Shown here piece by piece: positions 11,068-43,051 of a DNA stretch of 43,229 bases. Position 1 is the first letter of the stretch. The number at the start of each line of letters is the position of its first letter. The translations under genes were made by a program, and so were the position numbers. The stretch comes from Verrucomicrobiota bacterium (GTDB lineage Bacteria; Verrucomicrobiota; Verrucomicrobiia; Opitutales; UBA2995). The notes beneath the pieces were generated by a model. It was given only the letters and a program-made list of their open reading frames with translations. It made no database searches and was not told the DNA's origin. Where the stretch lies: assembly GCA_027622555.1 (NCBI GenBank), contig JAQBYJ010000039.1, forward strand, positions 1 to 43,229. The letters are read 5' to 3'.

Positions 11068-11096
11068 TTAAAAAGATACTTTAGCACAATTACCCC

Positions 11097-15877: not shown

Positions 15878-15928
15878 GTTTAAGTCTACTTTGAATCAAT
15901 AAAAACTAATATCTAATAAACATTTATA

Positions 15929-16151: not shown

Positions 16152-16211
16152 GGTGCCGCCATAATAGAAGTCTTTGAAGTGGCTGACAATTTAGAACCAA
16201 CTAATAACTAA
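16152..16211 (+). pseudogene. Decayed 3' end of a second secreted protein gene
   Basis: In frame this reads GAAIIEVFEVADNLEPTNN then TAA. The first part matches the end of the five-module protein (GVGQIEVFEVD) and the usual closing strand of this C-terminal domain family. Upstream in the same frame the match is lost and a stop occurs at 16038-16040. It looks like the last piece of a duplicated or former gene, with its own hairpin after it. The match is short, so chance cannot be excluded. Confidence 0.4.
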
Positions 16212-16218
16212 GTATCAT

Positions 16219-16243
16219 TGTCAGGTCATGGGGTGACCTGACA
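16219..16243. terminator. Hairpin, probable bidirectional terminator
   Basis: TGTCAGGTCA (16219-16228) / TGACCTGACA (16234-16243), a perfect 10-bp stem with a 5-nt loop. It lies between convergent units, 41 bp past the stop of the minus-strand GH17 lipoprotein gene. The flanks are only moderately T-rich (TTGTTTGTT on the plus strand), so termination strength is uncertain. Confidence 0.6.
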
Positions 16244-16284
16244 TTGTTTGTTATAGGAAGGCGGATTATCAACTCAGTATGATT

Positions 16285-17328
16285 TTAGCGACCCGACGCT
16301 TTCGGATGACGATCAACCGTGTATAGTCCCCAGTGTTTCTCAGCTCCAGCAGGATCATTGGGATTGCCTTTCCAATCCTCGTCAAAGGCTTCGAACCAGA
16401 AGGTGGTGATGTTCATGGCATCGGTCCATTTCATCAATTCCCCGAAATGCCTGGCCTGATTGACTTCATTGGCCTGCTCAGGAAACTCGGAGGCGACCGT
16501 AGGCCAGCCAGCCTCCAGGATTGCCAGAGGAACATTTGGGATCGCTTGCTGAACAGCCATCAGGTTCTCGATGGAATAGGCAAGGGCTTCATCTATGGTT
16601 TTATGTTCCCAAATCGGGTAAGTATGAACACCGGCAAAATCAACAACTGCGGAAAGCGCAGCCGCATGGTTTATCCACGCCACATAATTGTCGGCAGTCG
16701 AAACCGGTTGCTGGATCGCTTCCTTGGTCAATTGGATATAATTCACCATGCTTTCGATAGAAACAAGATGATCATTCCAATCGACCAGGGCTTCGTTACC
16801 TATGTTAACGGCAACTACAATTTCTGGATACTGCTGAGCCAGCTCGATGGCGCGTCCCACTTCGGTGACATTGGCTAGGCGATTGGATTCTAACTTGGTA
16901 GCCCGTATCGGTTCTGTTAACCAGGCACACCCTTCATGGTTGCTCAGCTCTGCATCCAACCAGGCCCCTAACATCACCTTAATAGGCAAGTCGTACTTTT
17001 TAATCTGCTGTAGAACCATCTCAGAATTTTCCTGACTGTCGTAAAGTCGGATGAGCGGAATTTCCAATTCATTCGACAGGATTAAAAGGTCTTCCAGAAT
17101 TTCTTCCGGAGAAGGATTATTGGGGCCATCACCACGATCAGGATATTGTCCGTTACGAAAACCTGAATAAGCAATGGCTTTGTGAAAGTCGGCTATCAAA
17201 GCATCGGATTTTTGTGGTAGGAAGAAGGAGGCTTTCTCATGAGTGACAATTTCTTTTTCCATAGATATACAACCAGACCCCAGAGCGGCCAAAATACTAA
17301 CAGTAAGGATTGAAAGTCTGAGTGACAT
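16285..17328 (-). CDS. GH17 beta-1,3-glucanase, predicted lipoprotein
   Basis: Predicted membrane-anchored glycosidase of 347 residues for beta-1,3-glucan or its oligosaccharides. The N-terminus MSLRLSILTVSILAALGSGC is a lipoprotein signal with the lipidated Cys20. The GH17 barrel shows acid/base Glu179 in 'VVAVNIGNEALVDWN' and nucleophile Glu272 in 'LAILEAGWPT', both family hallmarks, with 'FAGVHTYPIW' and 'TTFWFEAFDEDWKG' on the way. It is the last gene of a minus-strand operon, 29 bp after the GPH symporter. Position and lipid anchor fit trimming of imported oligosaccharides in the periplasm or at the outer membrane. Confidence 0.92.
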   Translation of the reverse strand: MSLRLSILTVSILAALGSGCISMEKEIVTHEKASFFLPQKSDALIADFHKAIAYSGFRNGQYPDRGDGPNNPSPEEILEDLLILSNELEIPLIRLYDSQENSEMVLQQIKKYDLPIKVMLGAWLDAELSNHEGCAWLTEPIRATKLESNRLANVTEVGRAIELAQQYPEIVVAVNIGNEALVDWNDHLVSIESMVNYIQLTKEAIQQPVSTADNYVAWINHAAALSAVVDFAGVHTYPIWEHKTIDEALAYSIENLMAVQQAIPNVPLAILEAGWPTVASEFPEQANEVNQARHFGELMKWTDAMNITTFWFEAFDEDWKGNPNDPAGAEKHWGLYTVDRHPKASGR

Positions 17329-17357
17329 ATTGCAGCACGCCCATGAGGACTTCCTCC

Positions 17358-18809
17358 CTAAACGTGACCGCGACGAGCTTCCAATTCAGCCCTCACTTCG
17401 TGAGCTCTTTCTTCAGTAATAGGATAAAAATACACCGCCAAAATAGCTAAAGCGGACGTTACGAAAGGAACTACTACATCAAATAAGCGCATAAGAAACA
17501 AGGTGCGGTCGGATTGATTACCTTCAAAAGCGACATCAAATCCTGTGGCATTGAGAGCAAAGCCTGAAAGCAACAATACAAAGGCCATGCCCAATTTCAC
17601 CACCCACCAGAATATAGAGCCGAACATACCTTCACGTCGTTGACCGGTTTCCAATTCGTCCACATCGCAAACATCAGCAATCATGGAACCCATTAGGGTG
17701 AAAAGACAACCCAGTCCAAAGGCAATGAACGGTGCGCAAACAAGAATGAGGTAAGGGTGCTCCGGGCTATAACAGAACCATTTGAGTCCATAGCCAAACA
17801 GAGAAATCCCCACCGATATAAAAAACGTTTTCTTCTTACCAAGCTTGGTGGCTACCCAGGATACTAAAAGAATAACGGTGAACGTCGACACTGCCATGAC
17901 GGTTCCAAAGACACCCATCAGGTTGGCTCCCAGATCTTTGTCTCCACCATAGACATAATAAATTAGAACATAGGATGTAAATGAGGCGACGAGTTGATAG
18001 CCATTAAAAACAAGAAATGTTGCCGCACATAGCAAAACAAAGGATTTGCTTTTGATTGTCTTTAACAGTCCTTTGAAGAAGTCAGCACCATGGGTTAAAA
18101 ATCCCTCTAATGCGCGCGTTTGTTGGATCGGACTTGGAGCTTTTTCCATATCCGCAAGACCCCTTTCTCTGGTTAAAAGAGCAGGCAAAACTCCTACAAG
18201 AATTACGAACACTCCGATCATGATCGCTAAACTTCGAGCACCGTCTACTGCAGTGGGAAAGAAGCGATCATTTTCCATAAATGCATAGAACCAGGGAAGA
18301 GCAATCCAGACAAATTGCCCCATGGCATTGGCAATCCCGAGGACACGGGTTCTTTCGTGGTAATCAGGAGTCAGTTCGTAGCCCAAGGCAACCCATGGAG
18401 TCGCAAACATGGTGTAAGCCAAATAAAAGAGGATGGAACCGATCAGAAAAAACCAGAAATAGAATTGTTCGCTGTGGCCAGGCGGCAATTGCCAAAGTCC
18501 TGCAAACAGAATTCCAGCGAATATGGCTCCAAAGAGAATGTATGGCCTACGCCTCCCCCACCGGGACTTCGTATTGTCGGAAATATAACCCATGAGCGGG
18601 TCAGTAAGTGCGTCCGTCAATCGCGGCAGTGCCATAAGTGTTCCCACCAGGGCAGGATTCATTCCAAGACCCAGAACCAGAACAATCGACATCATACTGA
18701 TGGCCGCTCCGAGCAGGTTGTTTACCAAAGATCCAAAACCGTAGGCGATCTTTTGATACAGACTTATACGGTCTCCAGGTGCCGTTGAATAGTGTTTGGA
18801 TTCGCTCAC
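17358..18809 (-). CDS. GPH family (MFS) sugar:cation symporter
   Basis: Inner-membrane symporter of 483 residues with about 12 membrane segments, belonging to the glycoside-pentoside-hexuronide:cation group. The family loop is visible at 66-89: 'DALTDPLMGYISDN', then KSRWGRRRPY. In this context it should carry glucose, laminaribiose or short beta-1,3-glucooligosaccharides into the cytoplasm, with Na+ or H+. The start is a GTG at 18809; the nearest in-frame ATG lies inside TM1, so the GTG is right. It lies 28 bp after the cytoplasmic GH17 gene and 29 bp before the lipoprotein GH17 gene, placing import between the two hydrolysis steps. Confidence 0.92.
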   Translation of the reverse strand: MSESKHYSTAPGDRISLYQKIAYGFGSLVNNLLGAAISMMSIVLVLGLGMNPALVGTLMALPRLTDALTDPLMGYISDNTKSRWGRRRPYILFGAIFAGILFAGLWQLPPGHSEQFYFWFFLIGSILFYLAYTMFATPWVALGYELTPDYHERTRVLGIANAMGQFVWIALPWFYAFMENDRFFPTAVDGARSLAIMIGVFVILVGVLPALLTRERGLADMEKAPSPIQQTRALEGFLTHGADFFKGLLKTIKSKSFVLLCAATFLVFNGYQLVASFTSYVLIYYVYGGDKDLGANLMGVFGTVMAVSTFTVILLVSWVATKLGKKKTFFISVGISLFGYGLKWFCYSPEHPYLILVCAPFIAFGLGCLFTLMGSMIADVCDVDELETGQRREGMFGSIFWWVVKLGMAFVLLLSGFALNATGFDVAFEGNQSDRTLFLMRLFDVVVPFVTSALAILAVYFYPITEERAHEVRAELEARRGHV

Positions 18810-18837
18810 AGTTGCTTTTGGTTAAATTTAGATGACC

Positions 18838-19728
18838 TTAACTGATATACTTTAAACAACCTTTAGAATTCCAGAGCCCCCAGTATGCTCCGACATCTCC
18901 TTCATCCCCTCTCTTCCAGGCTTCATCAAACGAAGAAAAGTAAAACATGTCGACCTTATCTTCTCCGGCCCAGTTTTGCACATTCACAAAGTAGCGTAAT
19001 GCATTGGTATCCGAAGGTACTGAATCGCCAAACTGTTTACCCGCATTGGGCCAGCCAGTTTCTGTAACGATGACTGGCTTATCACCCGCCGCCTTCTTAA
19101 CACGTTGATACATGTCCTTAATATATAGCAAAGCGTAATCCGAGTGGCACCCCTCCCAATAAGGATAACAATTTGCCAGGATAATGTCGCATGCATCTGT
19201 AAGTTTCGGTCGGTTACAAAATTCGTAATAGGCATCTACATAACCTACCTGACAATCGGGTAGCTCACGCTTTGCTAATTGAATGAATTCAAGTAGCACA
19301 TCCTCAGACATTTCGTTACGGTAAAGAACTTCATTTCCTACTGCCACGATGTCGGCAAGTCCTGCTCGACCAATCTCAAGTAAATTATCCATTTCCCGTC
19401 GGTTCTTATCATCATCTTTTCCAAGCCACGCACCGACCATGGTCTTCAGTCCCATCTCTTTGGCGATTCCCGGAATGAGTTCATTTCCGTCGGTACAGGA
19501 AAAGGTTCTAATCCATTTAACATGAGGCTGGATGATACTCAATCGCTCTCGGATCTGTGCTTCACCAATCACATGACCCGGCCCCTGCCCTTCCGTATAG
19601 GCACTGAAAGCTATCCCGTGCAAACCAAGATCAAGCACACCGGAAAAGGCACTTAACAGCTCTTCTTGGGACACATTCGACGAATGAAGTCCTGATAAAA
19701 TTTTAATACCTTCGATGCTAACTGACAT
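18838..19728 (-). CDS. GH17 family beta-1,3-glucosidase/glucanase, cytoplasmic
   Basis: GH17 barrel of 296 residues without signal peptide or membrane segment, so it should act in the cytoplasm. Acid/base Glu133 in 'DIVAVGNEVLYRNE', nucleophile Glu223 in 'PVIVTETGWPNAG', and 'DMFYFSSFDEAWKRG...YWGLW' at the C-terminus. Bacterial GH17 proteins include hydrolases and transglycosylases. With a symporter directly after it, trimming of imported oligosaccharides is the natural reading. It differs clearly from the lipoprotein GH17 in the same operon, so the two are not a recent duplication. The scar of a GH16 gene lies just upstream. Confidence 0.9.
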   Translation of the reverse strand: MSVSIEGIKILSGLHSSNVSQEELLSAFSGVLDLGLHGIAFSAYTEGQGPGHVIGEAQIRERLSIIQPHVKWIRTFSCTDGNELIPGIAKEMGLKTMVGAWLGKDDDKNRREMDNLLEIGRAGLADIVAVGNEVLYRNEMSEDVLLEFIQLAKRELPDCQVGYVDAYYEFCNRPKLTDACDIILANCYPYWEGCHSDYALLYIKDMYQRVKKAAGDKPVIVTETGWPNAGKQFGDSVPSDTNALRYFVNVQNWAGEDKVDMFYFSSFDEAWKRGDEGDVGAYWGLWNSKGCLKYIS

Positions 19729-19800
19729 TTATATGATCTCTAATTTTTTTTAATTTAATAGCGGCTACGAGTAATCGATATCACAGTCCGCGGCTTAAGG

Positions 19801-19950
19801 TTAACGCTGATAGACGCGGACATAATCCACCTCCATGCGCAGAGGAAAGGTCTTTTCGGACTTCGAACAACTCTGGAGAAACAGGGATAGCAGGAAAGCA
19901 ATCGCCATAAGCTGGTTTCCGGAATTCGAGTTTTCTTGGGAGGCACACAT
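19801..19950 (-). pseudogene. GH16 gene scar: lipoprotein signal fused to the last 15 residues
   Basis: A 49-codon frame remains in front of the GH17 operon. It starts MCASQENSNSGNQL, continues as a lipoprotein-type signal AIAFLLSLFLQSCSK, and then jumps to TFPLRMEVDYVRVYQR and a stop. That ending is the closing strand of a GH16 domain (the intact GH16 here has YPQRMEVDYVRVYE). The catalytic domain, some 240 codons, is missing and the frame is kept, so an in-frame deletion of a former lipoprotein GH16 is the simplest explanation. The operator at 19963-19982 is still in front of it. It may still be translated as a short leader peptide. Confidence 0.75.
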
Positions 19951-19962
19951 TGAGTAGATTTT

Positions 19963-19982
19963 TAAGGTGCAATATAATGCAA
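19963..19982 (-). promoter_or_regulatory. Putative LacI operator O4 (before GH17-symporter-GH17 operon)
   Basis: Reads TTGCATTATATTGCACCTTA on the minus strand, ending 12 bp before the GH16 scar and pointing towards the operon. On the minus strand a TTGATC (complement of 19995-20000) is followed after 17 bp by TTATAT, which lies inside the site. This gives the clearest promoter/operator overlap of the five. Confidence 0.65.
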
Positions 19983-20028
19983 TTATTAAAGCCTGATCAA
20001 TCTTTAATTTACAGAGATACAGCTTAAC

Positions 20029-21072
20029 TCAAACTAGCGCGGCCGAAGATTTTCCAATAATCGTCTGGCCTGAAATCTGAATATGCCTGCGTGGTGCGGT
20101 CGGGTTCTCAATGGTCCTTTTCAAACACACTATAGACGAGATCCCCAGGTCTTTGAATGCCACCCTTACAGTGGTGATTTGCGGAACTCCATGCGGACGA
20201 ATAATTCCATCAAACCCAGTCACCGAACAGTCCCCCGGAACAGAAACACCGTGTTTTTTTAGTTCATTCACCAGATGGTAGGCCTGGTGATCAGCCGCAC
20301 AAACCCAGGCCGTTACCCCTCGCTTCACAAATGCCGCAACTTTGACCCCCAGGCCTTCAAGGCTGATTTGTTCATCATGACGTACGTTCAGCACCAGCTT
20401 GGGATCAAACTCCAGACCGAGCCGATACAAATATTCAACGTAGGCTCCAAGCCGCCTTTCAACCCAGGGAGCATCAATGGCATATTTCCAACTTAGAAAG
20501 CCGATTCGCTGATGCCCCAAATGATGCAAATGACGCACCATGGCGCCAATACCACGTGTCTGATCCGGGTTAACGGAATCCAATTCAAGCTCATCGTAAT
20601 GATCTAACACCGAAACGGTCGGAAACTTGGTCATTAGATTTCTCACCGCTTCGGTATGAAAGGGATAAATCAACACCACTCCCTTCCAGGTAGAAGAGTT
20701 TCCATTGGGTACAATTTTACGCGGCCTTGGACCCGGTAAAAAACTGGAGGGCTCAACATAGTGAACCTCTATAAGCAATTTCTCGGCTGCCGCTTTCTCG
20801 CTGATGCCATTGATGATTTCAGCGGCGGTATCGACCTGTTTTTTTGCCGATTCATCCACGCCAACCAAGACCGATATGGTATTGCGCGCAGATTTTTTGG
20901 GCGATTGGGCATTTCGAGGGGCGGAGTAGCTGTAGCCAAGCTTCGCTGCCAACTGAAATACTTTGGCCCGTGTTTGCGGATTGATCTTCGGATGATTGGT
21001 GAAACATCGAGATACCGTGGTACGCGAAAGGTTTAACTTCTCTGCGATGGTTTGTTGATCTACTTTAGCCAA
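20029..21072 (-). CDS. LacI family transcriptional regulator
   Basis: Transcriptional regulator of 347 residues. The helix-turn-helix spans about 7-26 ('TIAEKLNLSRTTVSRCFTNHP'), followed by the hinge region 'TRAKVFQLAAKLGYS' and a periplasmic-binding-protein-like ligand domain from about residue 68 with 'GVVLIYP', 'HLGHQRIGFLSW', 'CSVTGFDGI' and 'QITTVRVAFKDLGI'. It probably binds a beta-1,3-glucan oligosaccharide or its product and controls the flanking genes through the five-copy motif. The start is a TTG at 21072; GAGAAG about 10 bases upstream can be its ribosome-binding site and no ATG is available. A weak start codon suits a low-copy repressor. It stands alone between the GH17 operon and the receptor gene, with no operator copy of its own. 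Confidence 0.92.
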   Translation of the reverse strand: MAKVDQQTIAEKLNLSRTTVSRCFTNHPKINPQTRAKVFQLAAKLGYSYSAPRNAQSPKKSARNTISVLVGVDESAKKQVDTAAEIINGISEKAAAEKLLIEVHYVEPSSFLPGPRPRKIVPNGNSSTWKGVVLIYPFHTEAVRNLMTKFPTVSVLDHYDELELDSVNPDQTRGIGAMVRHLHHLGHQRIGFLSWKYAIDAPWVERRLGAYVEYLYRLGLEFDPKLVLNVRHDEQISLEGLGVKVAAFVKRGVTAWVCAADHQAYHLVNELKKHGVSVPGDCSVTGFDGIIRPHGVPQITTVRVAFKDLGISSIVCLKRTIENPTAPRRHIQISGQTIIGKSSAALV

Positions 21073-21137
21073 TGGTGTGCTTCTCGTTAGGGGTTAAATT
21101 TTAGTTCAGATTAATTTGTTGGAAGAAACCAGAAAAA

Positions 21138-21167
21138 AAGCCGCCGTCTCGTTAAAGACAGCGGCTT
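21138..21167 (-). terminator. Intrinsic terminator of the TonB receptor gene
   Basis: AAGCCGC / GCGGCTT plus GTCT / AGAC with one mismatch and a 6-nt loop. On the minus strand it lies 20 bp after the receptor stop and is followed by a run of seven T. Confidence 0.9.
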
Positions 21168-21187
21168 ATTAAGTAGATCAGTTACTT

Positions 21188-24175
21188 TTAAAAATAAATT
21201 CCAAACTGCAACCGCCACGACAATCCGGGAGCATACAACAGACCATATTGGTCGGTATCGTCTAAAAGATTATCGACGTTCAACTGAGCAAAAACCTCAT
21301 TCTTGTCATTGAACATAGTGCTATACTTCACCATTCCGTTCAACGTCAGACGGGCATCCGTAACGGCCTGAATTTTCTTACCGGACTCGTTCTGCTTTTT
21401 CTGTCCTGCGGTCGTGAAGGCAGATGCATATTCTCTTTCACTTTCCCAGGCACCACCCAGAGCAAATTGCCAGCCTTTCATGGCCGAATCTTCATCCATG
21501 CGGATCGTGCCCCAGAAAGTCATGGCATGCTCGGGGGTGTCATCAAGTGATTCACCTTTTCCGTAGCCGATACCCGACCATGTTCCGGTGTCTTGACTGG
21601 GCTGTCCACCGCTGCCTCCTGGATAAACTTCTTCGTTTGAGAAAGTGGAAAGCCCCCAGTTTGTATTTGGGAAGTACCACTCGGCCCATCGGTCCCAGTT
21701 GCCATCCGTATAATCGTAGGTGGCAAAATTACCTGGATTGAGAATTTCTCTTTCAACATTGGAGTAATTAAAAATGAACTGCATGTTGTCGGTGGGTGAT
21801 AGCATAATCTGCATTTCCCACCCGCTGGACTGGTCAGAAATAGTCTGGTAGAAGTCACCACTAGACCAGTCCATTCCTGCTGTGTTAACCAACGGGTCGT
21901 CGAAACCATTATAGAGCCATCCCGGCCAGGGATCCAGGTCCGTCCTCTGTTCAATCGGCAGGGCAAACTCTCGGTTAAGCGCTGCGAATACGCCGTCCAG
22001 AAATGCAGCCCCATCAGCTTCGGATCCATTGATATACCATAGGCCTGTATTTTCGTCCCGCCATACTGCTCCCGACGCTCTGGCGGCCAGGTATTCGGGC
22101 AATGCTGCCTGAAGATAGCGGTTATCAGTTTTGATCTGAGGATTGAAATCGTCGAGACGGTAAACAATGTCTGCATTGCGATCAAAATCACCGCGAGCTG
22201 GTGCGGGTGCCCACCAGTAACTGAAAGGGACTCCCTGCCTTTCAATTTTAAAGACGCTGGTTGTGGCCGCCAGTTTTCCATCGAAGAGGCTTAGCTTTAA
22301 ACCAACCTCTTCAGACTCAGCTGTAGCGGCATTCAAGGGAATACCATAGCCGTCAACACGTCCTTCAAAATTGGGCTGAACTCCCTCTGAACCCAATGCA
22401 AACAGAGTCACCCCATTGAATACTTCATAACTGACTCCCCATTGAGCACTATCATGAGACAACTCGGGGCTTGAGCTCGTAAAATCGGAGCTCGGGTTCC
22501 GAAAATCGGTCCGACCGGCCTCAACGGAGTTTGTGTCTTTACGTAATCCCGCCACCACAAACAGGCGGTCATTGAGAAATCGCCCTGAGTATACCAGGTA
22601 TTGTCCCTCATTGGTAGCGTCGTTCGTCGAACGAAAACTCGGAGTCATCGGTTCATCGATAGCACCGTCACCCTGGATGCCGAATTGAATCGGCGAAGGA
22701 TCGGTGGGATCTTTCCAGTTCCAACCATCGCGGATGGGATCGAGGGGTTCACCGGTTACCAGTCCCCGGGCTTCGGTTCCGATACCAAAAATATCATTTT
22801 TCGCATTCTCATACATGTATCCCGCCAGGAAGGAATGCTCCGAATTAAGCCACTTCGAGTCTTCGAAAATCCGCTTAGAATAGGTCATCTCCACACGGGC
22901 CTGGTCGCGGTCAGTATCTTCCTCAATTTCAGACCAGGAATATTGAAAACTGGCATTCTCTACCTCCGCTTCCACATCCGTGGAGGATCCATCAATAATC
23001 TGGCGGGCGGTTATTGTTTTGCGTAGTGACTCAGGACCCGAATTCTGTGAGATTCCACCAAAAACATCCCGAAAACTGAAATCAGCACTGGCTGTATTGA
23101 AACCAGCTTTAAAGTAGAGATTTTCCACTATTTCCTGAGTGAGGTCCAAAAGTATATTAGAGGACTCGGTATTCAGATAGGTGTCGGGGCCCGACCACCG
23201 GAAAGTGCGAATATCCTTACCCGGAAATTCTAAAAATCCAAATGTCTCCAAACGATCGGTCTGAGTGATGGGGATACCTTCGATGCTCGGAGCGCGAACA
23301 CTTAGGAACCCAATTCCACTCGATTCCGCCTCTCCGAATTCCAGGTCAAGGAGGATACTTGTCCTGGAAGAAGGGGTCCACAAAAAGGAAGGGGAAGCAA
23401 ACCAGTGAGTGCTATTCTTAAGGTCGGTATAGTCGTCACTATCCTCCCAGGCAAAATTGACCCGGTAGGCAAGCCCGTTATCCGGGTTTCCTAAAGGACC
23501 GGTTACATCCGCGGTTACGCGATAAAGATTATCCGACCCGACGGTGACGCCATAATGTTGGAAGGGTTCGAGTAGCGGTTTTTTGGCTACATAATTTACC
23601 AGTCCACCAAAGTTTCCGATACCATACAATAGAGCAGACGGACCGCGAATTACTTCTATACGATCGATGTTGACTGAATCGGTGGCAAACTGTCTCCGGA
23701 ATCCATTGCGAAGCACGTTGTCGGTCACAAACCCTCGCACCTTGAAAGAGGTCTCTGATTTATTATCCGTGACACCCTCCGGACTGTTTACACCTCCGAT
23801 TCCTGAAAACGAGTCTGCGTTAAGCGCATCATTTTGGGATTGTAGAAGGATGCCAGCGCTGTAACGGAGAGATTCGCGCAGGTCAGTTGATCCTGTGTCT
23901 TCGATAAACTCAGAAGTCAGCACTTCAATCGACAGGGGAATGTCCTGAATGGCGGCACTTACCCGAGTCCCTGAAATCGCATTAGTGGCAAAGTAGCCAG
24001 AATCGGTCGATTCATCGATTTCGAAAGGGGAGAGAACGTATATATCGTTTTCTTCCTCTTCGTCGTTTTGAGCCGAGGCCGCAGGCATTAGAAATCCAGA
24101 AAGCAAAATACTCGCTCCAAATAAAAAAAGGATGCGTCGTGGGTAGCCTATAGAGGTAGTTGATTTAATCTTCAT
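21188..24175 (-). CDS. TonB-dependent outer-membrane receptor (glucan uptake)
   Basis: Outer-membrane active transporter of about 995 residues. I prefer the ATG at 24175 over the upstream 24232, as it begins 'MKIKSTTSIGYPRRILFLFGASILLSGFLMPAASAQ', a normal signal peptide. Next come an acidic TonB-box region ('DIYVLSPFEIDES'), the plug ('ISGTRVSAAIQDIPLSIEVLTSEFIEDTG...VRGFVTDNVLRNGF...IEVIRGPSALLYGIGNFGGLVNYVAKKPL') and a beta-barrel ending in Phe ('LSWRLQFGIYF'). The plug style resembles FhuA-type receptors as used widely in Opitutae, and no SusD partner is nearby. Divergent from the phosphorylase gene with an operator between them, so import of beta-1,3-glucan oligosaccharides is the likely role; siderophore uptake is the alternative suggested by homology alone. 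Confidence 0.92.
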   Translation of the reverse strand: MKIKSTTSIGYPRRILFLFGASILLSGFLMPAASAQNDEEEENDIYVLSPFEIDESTDSGYFATNAISGTRVSAAIQDIPLSIEVLTSEFIEDTGSTDLRESLRYSAGILLQSQNDALNADSFSGIGGVNSPEGVTDNKSETSFKVRGFVTDNVLRNGFRRQFATDSVNIDRIEVIRGPSALLYGIGNFGGLVNYVAKKPLLEPFQHYGVTVGSDNLYRVTADVTGPLGNPDNGLAYRVNFAWEDSDDYTDLKNSTHWFASPSFLWTPSSRTSILLDLEFGEAESSGIGFLSVRAPSIEGIPITQTDRLETFGFLEFPGKDIRTFRWSGPDTYLNTESSNILLDLTQEIVENLYFKAGFNTASADFSFRDVFGGISQNSGPESLRKTITARQIIDGSSTDVEAEVENASFQYSWSEIEEDTDRDQARVEMTYSKRIFEDSKWLNSEHSFLAGYMYENAKNDIFGIGTEARGLVTGEPLDPIRDGWNWKDPTDPSPIQFGIQGDGAIDEPMTPSFRSTNDATNEGQYLVYSGRFLNDRLFVVAGLRKDTNSVEAGRTDFRNPSSDFTSSSPELSHDSAQWGVSYEVFNGVTLFALGSEGVQPNFEGRVDGYGIPLNAATAESEEVGLKLSLFDGKLAATTSVFKIERQGVPFSYWWAPAPARGDFDRNADIVYRLDDFNPQIKTDNRYLQAALPEYLAARASGAVWRDENTGLWYINGSEADGAAFLDGVFAALNREFALPIEQRTDLDPWPGWLYNGFDDPLVNTAGMDWSSGDFYQTISDQSSGWEMQIMLSPTDNMQFIFNYSNVEREILNPGNFATYDYTDGNWDRWAEWYFPNTNWGLSTFSNEEVYPGGSGGQPSQDTGTWSGIGYGKGESLDDTPEHAMTFWGTIRMDEDSAMKGWQFALGGAWESEREYASAFTTAGQKKQNESGKKIQAVTDARLTLNGMVKYSTMFNDKNEVFAQLNVDNLLDDTDQYGLLYAPGLSWRLQFGIYF

Positions 24176-24278
24176 AGTAACTGATATTTTTGGTAACCGC
24201 GCAAATTCAATAATTCGCCAGAATTGCCACATTTCCGCACCAGTGTCAGAGTATATCTGGATACAGTCAAGGATTTTA

Positions 24279-35315: not shown

Positions 35316-36692
35316 CTAAAGGCTTTCGACAAACCGAATCACCAACCCACGTTGCTCAGCAGTTAACCTTTTAAACTCCTGCTTGCTGGCTTCCGCTTCA
35401 CCGCCGTGCCAAAGGATCGCTTCTTCCACATTCCGAGCGCGCCCATCGTGAAGCAAACGCGTGTGCTTGTTAACCTTAGATAATAAGCCAATTCCCCAAA
35501 GAGGTGGAGTACGCCACTCCGTTCCCGAAGCTTCAAAATCGGGCCGACCATCGGCAAGCCCTTTCCCCATATCATGAAGCAGGAGATCTGTGTATGGACG
35601 GATGGATTGTTCAGCCAATACAGTAACCGGGTAGTCCTTAGCTGTTTCCAAACGAGGTGTATGGCAGGCAACGCAACGCAACTGACTGAATAGTTCCTTG
35701 CCTTGATTAAATTTAGTTCGATCTTCGATTCGCGCCGCTGGAACAGCGAGTGTCTGCATATAAAAAACAACATCCTCCAGGTCTCGATCCGATAACTCAG
35801 GAGAACCTCCACTCGGAAACTTTTCCGAAAGGTTCTGGGATTCAGAATAATTTTCCCCGGGAAAAAGTGAATTGGTTATCCCAATATCTCCAAGAAACGC
35901 TCCGGCTGTTTGGTCAGTGAGAGTGGCCTTGTTCGCCTTCCAGCCAAAACGGCCGAGCTCCTTCTTTCCTAGGCTCGGACTCCAAACCCAATTAGGTCGC
36001 CCCGATATCCCGTCGCCGTCTTTATCATCCGGGTCAGATCGACTTAAAATATCGTCCTTGGATACCGCGTCTAAAAGCCCGAGCCCAAACACGACCGAAG
36101 CAACCCTGGGTGAGCTAAGCAATTCAGCATGCGGATCTCCATAAGCCCATTGAGTAAGAGAATAGTTTGGATCCAGCATTTGATAAGATTTTCCATCGGG
36201 ATAAAATCCGTCTATGATTTTGTATTGAATGCGAACGCTGGCTTCAGGCATAGCGCCGGGCAATGCACGTACGCTGACCTGGGTACCATAAACCGGATCA
36301 GGGCGCGGCGAATTATGCTCCGAAGTTCCTGGAATACTTATGCGCATTAACCAGCCATCGGGCACGGCGGTTTCTTCGGGTGGCTGACCGCGGCCATCTT
36401 TAAAATGACAGGTCGAGCAGGAACGTACATTGAATAAAGGTCCCAGCCCATCGCGGCCATTTACCTCGGACGAGGCATCTACCCAATTGGTATTGAAGAA
36501 TGCATTTCCTGCAAAAAAACGCGGATGTTGTTCAATTGGCAAATTCGTTGCCGGAAACCCAAAGGCATTAACAGACTCATCAAAAACGGTAGTCCCACCA
36601 CCTGTGAGCAAATCGCCAATACAAGGTAAACCAACATTTAGCGTTACGAGTATTGAGCAAACGACTCTTGCTCGTTGGAGCCCAAAAACCAT
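35316..36692 (-). CDS. Di-haem oxidoreductase (DUF1111, 'thiol oxidoreductase'-like c-type cytochrome)
   Basis: Exported cytochrome of 458 residues with an N-terminal hydrophobic export signal (about 8-25). Two haem c sites are visible: CSTCH (92-96, 'NVRSCSTCHFKDGRG') and CVACH (340-344, 'QLRCVACHTPRLET'). 'FNTNWVDASSEVNGRDGLGPLFN' before the first site and 'LLHDMGKGLADGRPDFEASGTEWRTPPLWGIG' near the end are characteristic of the family. It starts 6 bp after the imelysin stop. This pairing recurs in iron-uptake-type loci of many bacteria, so a role in redox handling of iron at the cell surface or periplasm is likely, though the exact reaction is unknown. Confidence 0.9.
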   Translation of the reverse strand: MVFGLQRARVVCSILVTLNVGLPCIGDLLTGGGTTVFDESVNAFGFPATNLPIEQHPRFFAGNAFFNTNWVDASSEVNGRDGLGPLFNVRSCSTCHFKDGRGQPPEETAVPDGWLMRISIPGTSEHNSPRPDPVYGTQVSVRALPGAMPEASVRIQYKIIDGFYPDGKSYQMLDPNYSLTQWAYGDPHAELLSSPRVASVVFGLGLLDAVSKDDILSRSDPDDKDGDGISGRPNWVWSPSLGKKELGRFGWKANKATLTDQTAGAFLGDIGITNSLFPGENYSESQNLSEKFPSGGSPELSDRDLEDVVFYMQTLAVPAARIEDRTKFNQGKELFSQLRCVACHTPRLETAKDYPVTVLAEQSIRPYTDLLLHDMGKGLADGRPDFEASGTEWRTPPLWGIGLLSKVNKHTRLLHDGRARNVEEAILWHGGEAEASKQEFKRLTAEQRGLVIRFVESL

Positions 36693-36698
36693 GGCCCG

Positions 36699-37889
36699 TT
36701 ATCCGCGTTTCACATCCAGCTCAAGAAGTTCCTCAGCATCAGCCAAAGCGTATACCAAACTCCACAAAGCACTCACTGCTTCTTGAACTTGAACCTGTTT
36801 GGGGGATCCATCCGCCGCCACGATAGCCTGGTCGAAAGGTGCCTCGATGGCTTCTACTTTTTCTTTTGCCACATAAAACTTTTGCTTAACTGCATCAGCG
36901 GCAGCCTGATCGGCTTCCGCAATTACATCATACAGCCCCTTCCCTTCAACTTGGGGACCATAAACGGGTTTGAAGGCTCCAAATAAAATGGCTTCAAGCC
37001 CTTCCATGTTTGCTATAAAATCGAAGTGCGTCGTATCACTAAAACAGGAATGCTCGTCTTCTTGCGACTTTGAACGCAAAGCAAGAGACATACGCTCGGC
37101 CGCCAGCTCCCGTCCTGCCAATGAACTAACACCACGCATGACTAATTTCATAAGCGTCGTCGGACGCTTCAGGAAAAAGTCGCCCGAGGCGTTATCGTAA
37201 TTGGACATGCTCCATTGATCTGCTACCGCCACCAGATGGCTTCGCAACAGTTCCGTAGCCGCGACTAAATAATTCATCCGTCTGTCGGCATTGGGGGCCA
37301 CTGTGAAATCGGTCCACTTGCGCTGCCCCGGACCATCGACAAACCGATCTTGTCCCCAAAGTAAAAACTCAATCGCATGCCAACCTGTGGATATATTGGT
37401 TTCTCCACCAACCACATTCAATTGACGCAACAAGCGACTGTTAATTTCAGGATAATCCTTAAGGTTATTGATAATGCCAGACCCTGGATCATCCTCAGTA
37501 TAGTCGATGTAGCTTTCATCTATCGGCCACGCATTGATCAGTTCCTCCAGTTCCATCTGATCAATCGGTCCATCCGAAAAACGATAAACTTCCGTCCGCC
37601 CATAGACCTTGCGGGCCTCTATCCAGGATTTCTTAAGTTCTCCAAAGGACACTTCTCCCGGTTCCTTCCGGAACCGATACACTGCCATATTAAATCTGAC
37701 TGTTTCCTTTACCGAGTCCGAATAGAGATACCAGGCAAGCGTTGCATAATTACTAAGAAATTCAAAAGCGATCTCATTTGAAAATGGTTGACCTTCCGGA
37801 GTCGGTGGAGCCACCTCGAAATCCGCTCGCAGAACAGGGGCAGGAATCCAGACCAACAGGACAATCAGAATTAAACGCGGGGACATCAT
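36699..37889 (-). CDS. Imelysin family (IrpA/EfeO-like, M75) protein
   Basis: Exported protein of 396 residues from the imelysin fold, linked with iron uptake in several bacteria (IrpA, EfeO relatives). Signal peptide 'MMSPRLILIVLLVWIPAPVLRA'. The family's GxHxxE motif is intact as GWHAIEFLLWG at 169-179, followed by 'QDRFVDGPGQRKWTDF'. The C-terminal half repeats the helical bundle ('FDFIANMEGLEAILFGAFKP'). A GGAGG lies 12 bases before the start. Forms a two-gene unit with the di-haem oxidoreductase. No Fur-type site was seen in the 95 bp upstream, although a GGAACGTTCC palindrome lies there. Confidence 0.9.
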   Translation of the reverse strand: MMSPRLILIVLLVWIPAPVLRADFEVAPPTPEGQPFSNEIAFEFLSNYATLAWYLYSDSVKETVRFNMAVYRFRKEPGEVSFGELKKSWIEARKVYGRTEVYRFSDGPIDQMELEELINAWPIDESYIDYTEDDPGSGIINNLKDYPEINSRLLRQLNVVGGETNISTGWHAIEFLLWGQDRFVDGPGQRKWTDFTVAPNADRRMNYLVAATELLRSHLVAVADQWSMSNYDNASGDFFLKRPTTLMKLVMRGVSSLAGRELAAERMSLALRSKSQEDEHSCFSDTTHFDFIANMEGLEAILFGAFKPVYGPQVEGKGLYDVIAEADQAAADAVKQKFYVAKEKVEAIEAPFDQAIVAADGSPKQVQVQEAVSALWSLVYALADAEELLELDVKRG

Positions 37890-37984: not shown

Positions 37985-38956
37985 TTATTTTGCCTCTCGC
38001 AACGGCATTTCGTTTTCGCCGTCTACCACACGCTTAATTAGGAAATTGGGACGTCGTAAGACTTCGTGGTAAATACGGCCAACATACTCACCGATGAGAC
38101 CCAGACCAGTACACAGAACCCCAATTACCAATATCAACGATAGCAAAAATAACCCAATAGAGCTAATCTGAATCTGAAAAAGGAAGGCCGATAAAAAGAG
38201 TGCGACTAAGCATATGAAGCCCGTACAAAAGACGCCAAAGCCCAGTAAAGTCAAAGTTTGCAGAGGCCAAAGAGAGAACCCGGTAATCAAATCAAAATTC
38301 AGCTCCATAAGGTTAAAGTAGTTATAACGCGATTTCCCGGAACTTCTACCCTCATGGGCTACTTCCACCTCCGCAGGATTCGAAGCGAACTTGTAAGCCA
38401 AGGCTGAAACAAAAACTGACCTTTCACGAGACCTCACCACGGCCTTGATTATGGATCCGCTATATGCTCTCAACATGCATCCCTGATCAGTTATGCGTAT
38501 GTTAGTTATTTTTTCACGAATGTAGTTGTTCAACCGTGAACTCCACCGCCTCATCCAAGAATCTTTTCTGTTACTACGTATTCCACCCACATAATCGTGA
38601 CCCCTGTCCATCAATTCAAGTAGTTTCGGAATTTCCTCCGGTGGATTCTGTAAATCTGCATCCAACGTTACCGCAATTTTCCCGCGTGCGAATTCAAAAC
38701 CAGCACAGATGGCATTAAACTGTCCGTAGTTCCCATTGAACTCAACCAACCTGACCTTACCGTGGTAATCCTCACAAAACGCTTCAAGCAAGTCCAGGGA
38801 ATCATCAGTGCTTCCATCATCAACGAATATTACCTCGTAGCTTCTTCCAAGTGTTTCCAGTACCGCAAGAAGTCGATAAAACAGTTTGGGCAAGCAGTCT
38901 TCCTCGTTGAACACGGGAATTACAACCGAGATCTCGGGTGATTGATGATTTTTCAT
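37985..38956 (-). CDS. GT2 polyprenyl-phosphate glycosyltransferase (ArnC/GtrB-like)
   Basis: Inner-membrane glycosyltransferase of 323 residues that should load a sugar from a nucleotide sugar onto undecaprenyl phosphate. GT-A motifs: 'VVIPVFNEEDCLPKL' (12-26), 'VIFVDDGSTDDSL', 'VTLDADLQNPPEEIPKL' and 'ITDQGCMLRAYS'. Two C-terminal membrane segments follow at about 232-290 and the protein ends 'GRIYHEVLRRPNFLIKRVVDGE'. This matches ArnC, GtrB and related enzymes. It is 22 bp downstream of the ArnT-like GT39 gene, so donor synthesis and transfer are encoded together. The sugar is not shown: no ArnA/ArnB genes for aminoarabinose are in the window. Confidence 0.9.
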   Translation of the reverse strand: MKNHQSPEISVVIPVFNEEDCLPKLFYRLLAVLETLGRSYEVIFVDDGSTDDSLDLLEAFCEDYHGKVRLVEFNGNYGQFNAICAGFEFARGKIAVTLDADLQNPPEEIPKLLELMDRGHDYVGGIRSNRKDSWMRRWSSRLNNYIREKITNIRITDQGCMLRAYSGSIIKAVVRSRERSVFVSALAYKFASNPAEVEVAHEGRSSGKSRYNYFNLMELNFDLITGFSLWPLQTLTLLGFGVFCTGFICLVALFLSAFLFQIQISSIGLFLLSLILVIGVLCTGLGLIGEYVGRIYHEVLRRPNFLIKRVVDGENEMPLREAK

Positions 38957-38978: not shown

Positions 38979-40691
38979 TTAAGTAATACTATCAGGGACT
39001 AGGAGGAGTGACAGAGGGATTGCCTTCATCGGTTCCCCCGGAGACGGTTTATTACTGATCAACACATAATTTTTGTCCCGAAAAATTAAAAATCCTTTTA
39101 GGGCCGGATAATCACGTGCAATCCGCCGGAGATGTTTGCTTCTGGCGACGGCGAATATTCGTGAATCACCTTCCCAACGAATTCGAAAAACTGTTTCTCC
39201 AACAAATCGGCTCGAGTGATCTTCTAACGTCAACCCAAAGTTGATGTCCCTCGACCAAGAATCGACAACACTCACTTTCTGATTCAGATAAAACGGAAGA
39301 TCCTGATGGTAATCAGATAAACAAAACACTTGATCCCCGTCCACTTGCATAGACAGAAGCTTTAATGCAACCGTCTTGGAGGATTTTAGGTCAACGTGCT
39401 TCAATAGAGGATTAAGAAGCAACAAGCATACAAACCAGGTTGAAAACGGCACCAACAACACGAGCTTTGTTTTGTATTTGGAAGTTAATACAGAAGTCGC
39501 AATCCCACCAACCACGAGAAAAAGGCAAAGACAAACAAACAGACGATCAGCTGCGGGAGTTAAATCTAGACCGCTAAAATGTAGAGCGAAAGGCAAGAGG
39601 AGCCCAGGAAATAGTGTCAACAGAGCCGTGGAATGCATGCCAATTTTTAGACCCTTTGGGTGGGAATTGACAAAAATGGCAATCAATAGTGAGAGGGCCG
39701 GAAATATTGGAAGAATGTAGGGAATGAGTTTCGAGCTGGAAGCAGAAAAAAAGCCAATGACAAAGATGATCCATATAACGAGGAAAAGAGTTGTTTCTCG
39801 TTGCTCGTTTTTCCTCCATCTCGTTTTTAAAAGATCGAAGAGAGTTCCAGGCAAAAATCCAAGCCATGGAATAAGTCCCACCGCACCGTAGACAAAGAAG
39901 AACCAGATCGGTTTGTTCCGACCGTGCCCTTCTTCCATGAAACGCAAAAAATGTTCATGGACAAAATAATACCATGCGAACTCTGAATGCTGCTGCCAGG
40001 CCAGGAAGTGCCAAGGTCCCGCTATTAGCATAAAAACCAGAATCCCCCAACCCAGATAACAAGGAAACAACTTCTTCCAACGTTGAGTGATTAACAGCCA
40101 AACTCCAATGATAGCTACTGGAATGAGCACTCCAATTAGACCTTTGGTCAGAACCGCCAGAGCACTCCAAATATAGAATGCCAGAATCAAGTTTCTCCGC
40201 AGCGGGCCCCTTTCCTCGCTGATCGCAACTAAGAAAGTCAGCAGTGCGAATGTAATAAATACGGACACAGCCATATCTATCACAACCAGCTGACTTATTG
40301 AAAAGTACATAAGCGAGGTAGATAAAATCGCAACTGAGATAAGACCAACCGAGCGATTATAGAGCCGTCGGCCAGCGACATATACACCTAAGCATCCTGC
40401 AAGCGCAAAAGCAGCCGGCCAGAACCGGGCAGCCTTTTCATTCAGTCCACCCACTTTTAAAGCGAGGGCTTGGAGCCAATAAAACAATGGAGGCTTGTCA
40501 AAATAGAGCACCCCGTTGACGCGTGGGCTGACCCAACTGCCGTCTTCCAACATTTCACGGGGTATCTCCGAATATCTACCTTCATCGGGATTTCCGAGAG
40601 GACGAACTCCATTTGTCCCAAAGAATAGGATACAAAGCAAAAAGCAGATCAAAGTAATATCCCTAAAAACTAACTTTCCGGTATGGGTCAC
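38979..40691 (-). CDS. GT39/ArnT-like membrane glycosyltransferase
   Basis: Polytopic inner-membrane glycosyltransferase of 570 residues using a polyprenyl-phosphate sugar as donor. About 12 hydrophobic helices and a C-terminal periplasmic domain. The catalytic loop after TM1 has 'RPLGNPDEGRYSEIPREML', with the Asp-Glu pair and RY of ArnT/PMT enzymes, then 'GVLYFDKPPLFYWLQAL'. ArnT relatives modify lipid A or other envelope glycans. The start is a GTG at 40691; no ATG is available before TM1. It is divergent from the two-component genes, and a PmrA-box-like repeat lies 65-81 bp upstream. Together with the GT2 gene this forms an envelope-modification operon. Confidence 0.88.
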   Translation of the reverse strand: MTHTGKLVFRDITLICFLLCILFFGTNGVRPLGNPDEGRYSEIPREMLEDGSWVSPRVNGVLYFDKPPLFYWLQALALKVGGLNEKAARFWPAAFALAGCLGVYVAGRRLYNRSVGLISVAILSTSLMYFSISQLVVIDMAVSVFITFALLTFLVAISEERGPLRRNLILAFYIWSALAVLTKGLIGVLIPVAIIGVWLLITQRWKKLFPCYLGWGILVFMLIAGPWHFLAWQQHSEFAWYYFVHEHFLRFMEEGHGRNKPIWFFFVYGAVGLIPWLGFLPGTLFDLLKTRWRKNEQRETTLFLVIWIIFVIGFFSASSSKLIPYILPIFPALSLLIAIFVNSHPKGLKIGMHSTALLTLFPGLLLPFALHFSGLDLTPAADRLFVCLCLFLVVGGIATSVLTSKYKTKLVLLVPFSTWFVCLLLLNPLLKHVDLKSSKTVALKLLSMQVDGDQVFCLSDYHQDLPFYLNQKVSVVDSWSRDINFGLTLEDHSSRFVGETVFRIRWEGDSRIFAVARSKHLRRIARDYPALKGFLIFRDKNYVLISNKPSPGEPMKAIPLSLLLVPDSIT

Positions 40692-40755
40692 AGCGTATTA
40701 TATTTTTTCATACATCGGCTAATCCAAAGTATGGTCGCAAATTTATGACCGGAAG

Positions 40756-40772
40756 CTTAACGTTCCCTTAAG
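40756..40772. promoter_or_regulatory. PmrA-box-like direct repeat (GT39 side)
   Basis: CTTAAC-GTTCC-CTTAAG, two hexamers with a 5-bp spacer, the form of the enterobacterial PmrA box (YTTAAK-N5-YTTAAK). It is 65 bp from the GT39 start, suiting an OmpR-type dimer binding head to tail on one face of the helix. Confidence 0.55.
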
Positions 40773-40860
40773 TGTAACAAAAATCTGAAAAGAACTCGTA
40801 AGATTCCCTTTAAAGCGGTTTTGGATGGGACTGAAAAAAGTTGATAACAGAATGGGGTAT

Positions 40861-40878
40861 CATTAAGGCTACATTAAG
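40861..40878. promoter_or_regulatory. Direct repeat before the response regulator
   Basis: CATTAAG-GCTA-CATTAAG, an exact 7-bp direct repeat with 11-bp period (ATTAAG-N5-ATTAAG). It is 45 bp upstream of the response-regulator start and has the same period and TTAAG core as the site at 40756-40772, which suggests autoregulation. Confidence 0.55.
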
Positions 40879-40922
40879 GAAAGAATGGTTTGATTACACG
40901 TTACAAATTCACCTGCTAACTT

Positions 40923-41597
40923 ATGAAAGTACTTATAATAGAAGATTCACAGCGTCTGCTACGGTCTTTAACCCACGGCCTTAAAAAGCAGGGATTCTCG
41001 GTGGACGCTGCGTCAGATGGACGAGATGGGCTCGATTTTGCGTTGTTCAACAATTACGACGTGATTCTTCTCGACCTCATGCTGCCAGGGATAGACGGCC
41101 TCACCATTTTAAGGAAATTGAGGGCGTCGGGAAAGCAGACCCACATTCTCATCCTTTCTGCCAGTGATCAGGTAGATGACCGGATTCGAGGGCTTCGCCT
41201 GGGAGCAGATGATTATATGATAAAACCGTTTTCCTTCGATGAACTGATCGCCCGCATTCAGACCTTGGTTCGGAGAAAATATGAAGCCAAGTCTCCCGAA
41301 GTCAGCGTTGACGGTGTGATAGTAAACACAGCCAATAAAGAGGTGACCTGCAACGGAAACGTGGTTACATTAACTCCTGGTGAATATGCGATTTTGGAAC
41401 ACCTCATGCTCAACCGGGGACGGGTACTTTCCAAGGATCAATTGTTGGATGCCGTCCACGACAGCGAGTCCTATGCCAGCCGAAATGTGATAGAGGTTCT
41501 AGTTTGCAATTTAAGGAAGAAACTCGATCATAACGGGAATCCATCGATTATTAAAACAAAGCGTGGTTACGGCTATCTGATAGATCAAAGCGCATAA
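40923..41597 (+). CDS. OmpR/PhoB family response regulator
   Basis: DNA-binding response regulator of 224 residues. Receiver domain 1-115 with acidic residues 'IIEDSQ' (7-8), phosphoacceptor Asp51 in 'VILLDLMLPGIDG' and conserved Lys in 'DDYMIKPFSFDEL'. The winged-helix domain (about 128-222) ends with 'SRNVIEVLVCNLRKKLDHNGNPSIIKTKRGYGYLID'. Followed after 2 bp by the histidine kinase gene, clearly its partner. Direct repeats on both sides of the divergent promoter region are plausible targets, one in front of its own gene and one in front of the GT39-GT2 operon, the arrangement expected of a PmrA-like regulator. Confidence 0.95.
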   Translation: MKVLIIEDSQRLLRSLTHGLKKQGFSVDAASDGRDGLDFALFNNYDVILLDLMLPGIDGLTILRKLRASGKQTHILILSASDQVDDRIRGLRLGADDYMIKPFSFDELIARIQTLVRRKYEAKSPEVSVDGVIVNTANKEVTCNGNVVTLTPGEYAILEHLMLNRGRVLSKDQLLDAVHDSESYASRNVIEVLVCNLRKKLDHNGNPSIIKTKRGYGYLIDQSA

Positions 41598-41599
41598 AA

Positions 41600-43051
41600 G
41601 TGAAATCGATCCGACATGAGCTAACGGTCCGCCTTTTAATAGGGACATCTCTACTGCTTATCGCAGCGAGTACGGTTCTTTGCATACTTGTTAGGTCTAT
41701 TCTTTTGGACGGTTTTGATAATAATCTACGAACAAAAGCAAAGACGATCAACGCCCTGACCATGAGGGAAGGGAATCGTATCGAAAGCGAGATTCATGAA
41801 GATTCAATGCCTGAGTTTAGCGACGAAGAGAATCCGGAATTCTTTCAAATTGCCTTTCAGGACGGTACAGTGATTAACAGGTCGGAATCCATGGAGGATT
41901 TTGACGGATCAGTCCCAGACCTTGGAGAAACCCTTGATGCAATCGGAAACATCAAGTTGGAGGATGGAGAAGAAGGGCGTTATGTCCTGATCAGAACTAA
42001 ACCCATCAATGAAGTAGAGGTGGATGAGGAGGAGGAAATTGAGGAGGATGAGATCATTTTTGAAATTCCGGCTTCCATAAACCCGGAAGCGGCAACCGTA
42101 ACTATTTTTGTAGCAAAAAGCAGGGAAGATTTGGACCAAATGCTTGCCTTTATTTTCCTTACCATTGGTGGCATCGACCTACTGATTCTGGCAGGCATTT
42201 TTTTAGTCGTTCGAATATCCGTGAACAAGGGATTACAACCCATCGACAACATCAATGCCCAAATAGAGAGCATAGACCCTGACGACTTAGCAAAACGGAT
42301 CAGCCTAAAGGACCCTCCATCCGAATTGAGGAGCATCATTCAAACGCTGAACGAACTGCTTGAACGTATGGATGAGACCATTGTTCGTGAAAGAAGATTT
42401 ACCAGCGATGTCGCCCATGAACTCCGGACACCGGTCTCGGAACTTAGAACCGCCTGTGAAGTGGGCGTCATGTCTCTAGAAGACGAGGAAACTACCAGAA
42501 TATTTTTTGAGGATATCAATGATGTCTCCCAACAAATGGAGAAGATTGTCAGCAACCTGCTTTCACTTAGTCGATGGGATCAGGACGCAACACCCATCAA
42601 TTATGAAAAGGTGGAATTGGGTGACCTGGTTAGAGATTGTTGGGACCACTGCAAAGCTGAGGCACAAGGGAAAAAGATAGAACTTGATTGCAGGATCGAT
42701 TCAAAAACCACCATTTCCACTGATAAAGAAAAACTCCAAATGATCCTTCAAAATCTTTTGGAAAACGCAGTAGCCTACAGCGTTCCTGGAAGCCGGATTC
42801 GCTGCATGGTTGAACCGGGGAATCCATCCATAAATCTAATTGTGGAAAACCAAGCGGCCAACCTTTGCAGGGAAGATTTGCGTCACCTCTTTGATCGTTT
42901 CTGGAGGAAGGACAAAGCCAGGAGTGAGGTAAACCACTCTGGATTAGGATTGGCCATCGTCAAAGCGTTGGCCGATATTATGGATATCGAAGTGCATCCA
43001 GAACTGATGGATGATCGATGGTTCCGCATGCGTTTGAAAATCCGCATTTAA
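41600..43051 (+). CDS. Sensor histidine kinase with acidic periplasmic domain
   Basis: Membrane sensor kinase of 483 residues starting at a GTG 2 bp after the regulator stop. TM1 about 10-33, periplasmic domain about 37-183, TM2 about 184-205, HAMP about 206-260, H-box 'FTSDVAHELRTPVSELR' with His273, N-box 'LLENAVAYS' with Asn389, F-box 'FDRFWRKD', G2 box GLGLAIV (448-454). The usual G1 motif DxGxG is replaced by 'VENQAANLCREDL', a variant known from some heavy-metal-type kinases. The periplasmic domain has 12 acidic residues in 18 (138-155, around DEEEEIEEDE), including several ExxE pairs, and a second acidic run at 62-80. This suggests sensing of metal cations or cationic peptides, as in PmrB or PhoQ. 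Confidence 0.92.
   Translation: MKSIRHELTVRLLIGTSLLLIAASTVLCILVRSILLDGFDNNLRTKAKTINALTMREGNRIESEIHEDSMPEFSDEENPEFFQIAFQDGTVINRSESMEDFDGSVPDLGETLDAIGNIKLEDGEEGRYVLIRTKPINEVEVDEEEEIEEDEIIFEIPASINPEAATVTIFVAKSREDLDQMLAFIFLTIGGIDLLILAGIFLVVRISVNKGLQPIDNINAQIESIDPDDLAKRISLKDPPSELRSIIQTLNELLERMDETIVRERRFTSDVAHELRTPVSELRTACEVGVMSLEDEETTRIFFEDINDVSQQMEKIVSNLLSLSRWDQDATPINYEKVELGDLVRDCWDHCKAEAQGKKIELDCRIDSKTTISTDKEKLQMILQNLLENAVAYSVPGSRIRCMVEPGNPSINLIVENQAANLCREDLRHLFDRFWRKDKARSEVNHSGLGLAIVKALADIMDIEVHPELMDDRWFRMRLKIRI

Follow-up and report, generated by a model that had tools for sequence, protein, structure and literature searches.

Organization of the divergent locus

The locus described here raises the question of whether two TTAAG-type direct repeats in a single intergenic gap are operators that link a two-component system to genes for envelope sugar transfer, and whether such a link represents a PmrA-controlled Arn system outside Proteobacteria. 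The window, i.e., the whole stretch of 43,229 nucleotides that was analysed, is an entire contig (C39) from the draft genome (G000; 6.0 Mb, completeness 96%) of a Verrucomicrobiota bacterium of the order Opitutales. A gap of 231 bp (40692-40922) separates a GT39/GT2 glycosyltransferase pair on the minus strand from a regulator/sensor pair on the plus strand:

37985..38956, minus strand: GT2-family ArnC-like polyprenyl-phosphate-sugar synthase, 323 aa (identity to E. coli ArnC; PDB matches)
38979..40691, minus strand: GT39-family ArnT-like polyprenyl-phosphate-sugar transferase, 570 aa (Pfam PMT, PMT_2, Arnt_C; match to ArnT 5ezm)
40923..41597, plus strand: OmpR/PhoB-type response regulator, 224 aa (Pfam Response_reg, Trans_reg_C; NCBIfam; alignment)
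41600..43051, plus strand: sensor histidine kinase, 483 aa (Pfam HAMP, HisKA, HATPase_c)

The kinase gene starts 2 bp past the regulator stop codon, and the GT2 gene begins 22 bp beyond GT39, both glycosyltransferases being encoded in one operon. After a 95-bp gap GT2 is followed on the same strand by imelysin and di-haem oxidoreductase genes (35316-37889), which may be transcribed by read-through from the GT39 promoter. Elsewhere in the window, positions 8165-24232 encode GH16, GH17 and GH72/GH2-like enzymes, an MFS sugar transporter, a LacI regulator and a TonB receptor; such a gene content suggests a locus for the utilisation of beta-1,3-glucan (laminarin).

Two operator-like repeats in the intergenic gap

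The initial annotation had reported one repeat with an 11-bp period near the GT39 gene and another near the regulator gene, and both were found in place:

40755..40772, minus strand: predicted operator of the GT39-GT2 operon, CTTAAGG-gaac-GTTAAGC, two head-to-tail half-sites (CTTAACgttccCTTAAG at 40756-40772; rare exact core, half-sites kept in the same-genus genome G002)
40862..40879, plus strand: predicted autoregulatory operator of the regulator-sensor operon, ATTAAGG-ctac-ATTAAGG (ATTAAGgctacATTAAG at 40862-40878; kept before the regulator in G002, G251 and the MAG OFTM265)

Read along the gene that each precedes, both boxes have the form NTTAAG-N5-NTTAAG. The PmrA consensus YTTAAK-N5-YTTAAK is matched perfectly by the regulator box only, and only on the strand opposite its gene, while the GT39 box has one mismatch to it on either strand. 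Resemblance to this consensus alone proves nothing, because sites with up to two mismatches are as common in the window as expected (41 found vs. 44), a lack of enrichment that would suit an origin of the boxes as chance A+T-rich repeats. The exact core TTAAG-N6-TTAAG is, however, rare: the 6.0-Mb genome contains seven copies, two of them inside the 231-bp gap. The Poisson chance of two exact cores within 231 bp is about 4e-8, and when the gap was dinucleotide-shuffled 20,000 times, one shuffle held two. Over the whole genome the exact core is no more frequent at spacing 6 than at other spacings (seven sites vs. a mean of 7.6 per spacing); these sites stand out by placement, not by number. Six of the seven are intergenic and upstream in gene orientation, compared with 3/28 pairs at other spacings (p = 3e-4), and the excess persists after removal of the two discovery sites (p = 0.004).

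Orthologues of the regulator are encoded in the window, in G002, in G251 and in the Opitutales MAG OFTM265 (genome G372); the last of these was the only one added by the widest scan of genome contigs. Contig C568 of G002 carries the regulator (85% identity), GT39 (60%) and GT2 genes in the same order as the window, together with the boxes CTTAACaacttCTTAAG and ATTAAGgatctATTAAG. All 24 half-site columns are identical between the window and G002, vs. 86 of the 207 other gap columns (42%; Fisher p = 4e-9). Loss of the repeats from relatives with the same gene order had been named as evidence against a regulatory link; no such loss was seen, because G002, the sole relative having that order (n = 1), keeps both. 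The proposed arrangement, an OmpR-type regulator divergent from ArnT-like GT39 and ArnC-like GT2 genes and linked to them by repeats, thus stands as a conserved one, present in G002 too. The boxes ATTAAGctactGTTAAG and GTTAAGcaactGTTAAG are located 68 and 67 bp before the start codons of the G251 (68% identity) and OFTM265 (67% identity) regulators, respectively, and the box-to-start distance in all four orthologues is 61-68 bp. For most of the order's remaining regulators, which are 40-50% identical, no autoregulatory box was found.

The exact sites are therefore rare, paired, oriented, conserved and, as described below, at a fixed distance from a -10 element, all of which leaves a chance origin with a negligible probability; it was rejected on the conservation of the boxes in G002, G251 and the OFTM265 MAG. 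The boxes look like real switches of a kind known from Salmonella and Streptococcus, here in an environmental bacterium.

As a separate observation, TTAA repeats with an 11-bp period occur 52-54 bp before the start codons of other regulators, upstream of 1501 in L018 (a genome of the order Opitutales) and of 5001 in L077 and L082 (Chloroflexi).

Promoter geometry

Alignment of 16 upstream-placed sites revealed a peak in the mean TATAAT match (3.44/6) exactly 9 nt after the box, which none of 5000 shuffles reached at any offset. No such peak arose when the test was repeated on 21 core sites of regulator-free genomes, and when all 37 sites in regulator-bearing genomes were taken irrespective of placement the peak was again at 9 nt (2.49). 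The fixed offset indicates that the box stands in place of the -35 element. Two -10 elements are predicted from this peak in the gap:

40740..40745, minus strand: predicted -10 element of the GT39 promoter, TAAATT, 9 nt beyond the 18-bp box
40889..40894, plus strand: predicted -10 element of the regulator promoter, TTTGAT, 9 nt beyond the 18-bp box

Identity of the regulator

The regulator scores 185.7 bits against the PmrA/BasR model NF007928 (cut-off 330) and 212.5 bits against the CusR/CopR/CzcR model TIGR01387 (cut-off 279), while the kinase reaches 204 of the 293 bits needed for TIGR01386. The PmrA-type regulator implied by the initial annotation is not borne out: orthology with PmrA was rejected on a score of 186 bits that is far under the cut-off and lower than that for the CusR/CopR subfamily. 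The best reading of these sequences is that the regulator is neither PmrA, CiaR nor CusR by family tests and probably works like PmrA or CiaR.

In PmrA, Asn188 and Asn196 make base-specific contacts (PMC4660055). Both residues, as well as the wing arginine (Arg210), are present at the PmrA positions in the window and G002 regulators; position 196 is Lys in the G251 and OFTM265 proteins. Among about 120 related regulators, TTAA boxes were found for 8/31 with Asn, Tyr or Lys at position 196 and for 0/90 with other residues, and the association holds with the four orthologues counted once (p = 6e-4). Regulators with Arg or Ser at this position have no box within 250 bp upstream.

The boxes could instead be real operators of another, paralogous OmpR-type regulator, several of which are encoded in the genome; one well-placed box also occurs in G004, in which no orthologue was detected. 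Such an assignment is improbable, since the box precedes all four orthologues and is missing before the paralogues examined, and six related genomes without an orthologue contain no exact copy of it.

Glycosyltransferases and the Arn pathway

The GT2 protein shares 41% identity with E. coli ArnC along 318 aa, and its top PDB matches are ArnC structures; its score against the ArnC model NF007986 (295.6 bits) does not reach the cut-off of 529. The sole PDB match of the GT39 protein is ArnT 5ezm (E 1e-48, nearly full length), and against the ArnT NCBIfam model it likewise falls short (221.6 bits, cut-off 567). The critical residues of ArnT are Asp55, Arg58, Glu84, Lys85, Asp158, Lys203, Arg270 and Tyr345 (PMC8306577). 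Seven of the eight are kept in GT39 (Asp55, Arg58, Lys85, Asp158, Lys203, Arg270 and Tyr345), and Glu84 is replaced by Asp.

A search with E. coli ArnA revealed no formyltransferase-decarboxylase fusion in the 96%-complete genome; the matches were the Met-tRNA formyltransferase Fmt and a decarboxylase-like epimerase (38%), a separate protein encoded on another contig. Beside the GT39-GT2 pair there is no arnB, arnD, arnE or arnF, and neither a complete arn operon nor an EptA-type gene was found there. A full Ara4N pathway was rejected on the ArnA result, and aminoarabinose is an unlikely substrate because the ArnA formyltransferase was not found. A genuine Arn system, with PmrA-like control, Ara4N on lipid A and polymyxin tolerance, would account for the ArnC identity, the ArnT-like residues and the PmrA-type box, but the missing bifunctional ArnA, the lack of the other arn genes next to the pair and the scores far under both equivalog cut-offs make it very improbable. 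Of the Arn-like switch suggested earlier, the conserved operator-like link to ArnT/ArnC-like genes holds up, while the true Arn pathway does not. A sugar other than Ara4N is used in Francisella and is suspected for the Xanthomonas ArnT (PMC8306577); the safer reading is that the GT39-GT2 pair also uses such a sugar.

A proposed small regulon beyond the glycosyltransferases

Outside the window, exact sites of G000 precede genes for an acidic secreted protein of 248 aa, an LtaS-like sulfatase-fold protein, an LpxL-like acyltransferase and a DUF3450 protein, the last adjoining an ExbB-like gene; the LtaS-like, LpxL-like and DUF3450 sites have a poor -10 at the expected offset. A homologue of the 248-aa protein (37%; 248/395 aa, secreted) is encoded in the OFTM265 MAG with a box 90 bp upstream, and none was found in six other genomes searched. 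The upstream neighbour of the regulator in G251 encodes a PepSY protein that is 47% identical to one of the OFTM265 MAG, and both have a box. The box of the G002 PepSY gene is degenerate, and no PepSY homologue was found in four same-genus genomes without a detected regulator.

The recurrent targets are thus the two-component genes, the small PepSY protein and the acidic secreted protein. The GT39-GT2 operon is seen as a box target only in the genus of the window (two genomes), and no box accompanies the GT39 homologues found elsewhere in the order. The set of genes with a box is wider than the Arn-like operon of the initial annotation: in G251 and the OFTM265 MAG the box serves the regulator, the PepSY protein and further envelope genes, and GT39 is not adjacent.

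The refined motif RTTAAGS-N4-RTTAAGS occurs exactly in 3, 3, 2 and 4 copies (12) in the four regulator genomes and in none of six same-genus or same-family genomes in which no regulator was found; this count is supportive and not independent, because the motif was refined partly after some of these sites were known. Sites with one mismatch to it show no enrichment in placement (6/36 well placed in regulator genomes vs. 5/20 in genomes without it) and were therefore dropped.

These neighbourhoods also bear on a different role, that of a mainly metal-stress (Cus/Cop-type) system for which the glycosyltransferases would be a lineage-specific recruited target and lipid A modification would not be the function. 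The highest-scoring models for the regulator and the kinase are those of the heavy-metal subfamilies (TIGR01387 and TIGR01386, respectively), the OFTM265 regulator is preceded by an RND efflux pump and a Cys/His-rich protein, one G251 box precedes an outer-membrane efflux protein, and in the window GT2 is followed by the imelysin and di-haem oxidoreductase genes. Nevertheless, both scores are under the curated cut-offs (212 of 279 and 204 of 293), most CusR/CopR-like regulators have Arg196 and no TTAA box, and the conserved divergent operator of the window belongs to glycosyltransferases and not to efflux genes, so that a metal-stress role is unlikely, if less so than the alternatives above.

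Several related sites were recorded in addition. The genes L324:498-1463 (G000, C11) and L231:319-1227 (G004, C170) encode proteins that are 60% identical and outer-membrane-like by eye, and both are preceded by a TTAAG-type repeat with a -10-like hexamer at the regulon offset; G004, an 88% complete draft, has no regulator orthologue that we could find despite the box before the L231 gene. In G002 (C357), L212:2880-2908 contains three consecutive TTAAG half-sites with an 11-bp period, 81-92 bp before a gene whose 373-aa product matches no Pfam family and looks barrel-like by eye. Three genomes of family f10 (G091, G038 and G111) carry 3-6 copies each of GTTAAGCG-NN-(A/G)TTAAGC-type sites, vs. 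an order average of about 0.3, and these possibly represent a separate regulon with a related operator.

Proposed regulatory mechanism

The sites, their conservation, spacing and orientation, and the families of the encoded proteins are observed features of the locus. They point to a likely function as an autoregulated envelope-stress two-component system that activates a GT39-GT2 operon for polyprenyl-phosphate-sugar transfer, resembling PmrA/CiaR or RaxRH-arnT systems and lying outside PmrA and Arn proper. For binding, activation, signal, sugar and acceptor we infer the following scheme from the sequence. The gap would contain two promoters facing in opposite directions, each equipped with a separate operator for the adjacent regulator. 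The sensor kinase would detect an envelope condition and phosphorylate the regulator. Its periplasmic domain is acidic and has several ExxE motifs, one of which recurs at an equivalent position in three orthologues (ENPE-FFQ, ESPE-YFQ and EDLE-YFQ), an alignment made by eye of a motif that is easily found in acidic sequence. Such motifs bind metals in PmrB and ColS (PMC8306577), and the acidic, ExxE-bearing domain suggests cations or cationic peptides as the signal.

A phosphorylated regulator dimer is predicted to bind the two TTAAG half-sites, 11 bp apart on one DNA face, at the -35 position and to recruit RNA polymerase to the -10 element 9 nt on (class II activation). Occupation of one operator would autoregulate the two-component genes, and that of the other would turn on GT39-GT2. 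GT2 could then load a sugar onto undecaprenyl phosphate, and at the periplasmic face GT39 could pass this non-Ara4N sugar to an acceptor in the envelope, possibly a lipid A phosphate.

More tentatively, and with somewhat more doubt than support, the data may describe a small non-proteobacterial envelope-stress regulon, probably of Opitutales, with a CiaR/PmrA-type operator, strict -10 spacing and ArnC/ArnT-like lipid A remodelling with a non-Ara4N sugar, its targets rewired between genera and its operator and regulator constant. A limited full-text literature search found no described envelope-stress regulon for this group. The operators and promoters of the two-component system are predicted here to the single-base level, and the response gains testable candidate members in the conserved secreted protein and the PepSY protein. 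Should the proposal be true, Proteobacteria are not alone in regulating the remodelling of lipid A or glycans, and one TTAAG operator with its promoter geometry is common to streptococci, proteobacteria and the lineage of the window.

Comparison with known systems

PmrA/BasR of enterobacteria and Acinetobacter shares with the present system TTAA half-sites 11 bp apart, Asn188 and Asn196, and, as proposed here, control of envelope-modification genes; Acinetobacter PmrA also binds TTTAAG-N5-TTTAAG. It differs in that the regulator box here fits YTTAAK only when read against its gene. The PmrA-box likeness first proposed is right as to TTAA half-sites at 11 bp, but the boxes are equally CiaR-like, and gene orientation and -10 spacing fit CiaR best.

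In Streptococcus, the CiaR promoter consists of NTTAAG-N5-TTTAAG with a -10 element 10 nt after the last TTTAAG, and a csRNA search for CiaR used TTTAAG-N5-TTTAAG followed by TATAAT at 10 nt (PMC3091779). CiaRH thus has a direct repeat with the same distance to the -10 element as found here, and its recognition helix in CiaR, VVEVYVSKVRKKL, is similar to VIEVMVCKLRAKL, which two of the orthologues have. CiaRH is, however, a Gram-positive system with other targets. The TTAAG cores and spacing of the CiaR-type pattern are present over the 16 aligned sites; the second half-site mostly starts with G or A, not T, and the first base of either half-site is mostly A or G here vs. T in CiaR.

The ArnC/ArnT and FlmF1/FlmF2-type donor synthases likewise combine a GT2 polyprenyl-phosphate-sugar synthase with a GT39 transferase. 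ArnC/ArnT differ in that the proteins here are under the equivalog cut-offs and have Asp for ArnT Glu84. Literature searches on Verrucomicrobia with aminoarabinose or ArnT yielded nothing relevant.

Xanthomonas RaxRH, encoded with arnT-lpxE-eptA, is orthologous to Pseudomonas ColRS (PMC8306577). As in the window, its two-component genes adjoin an ArnT-like gene, the sensor has ExxE motifs and the sugar is thought to be non-Ara4N. It belongs to Gammaproteobacteria and has lpxE and eptA where an ArnC-like GT2 is found here, and no TTAAG box is described for it in the literature consulted. Because raxRH-arnT has already been described, the regulator-arnT logic has a precedent. A two-component system beside arnT is therefore known in Xanthomonadales; what is new is the lineage, the operator-promoter geometry and the conserved small regulon.
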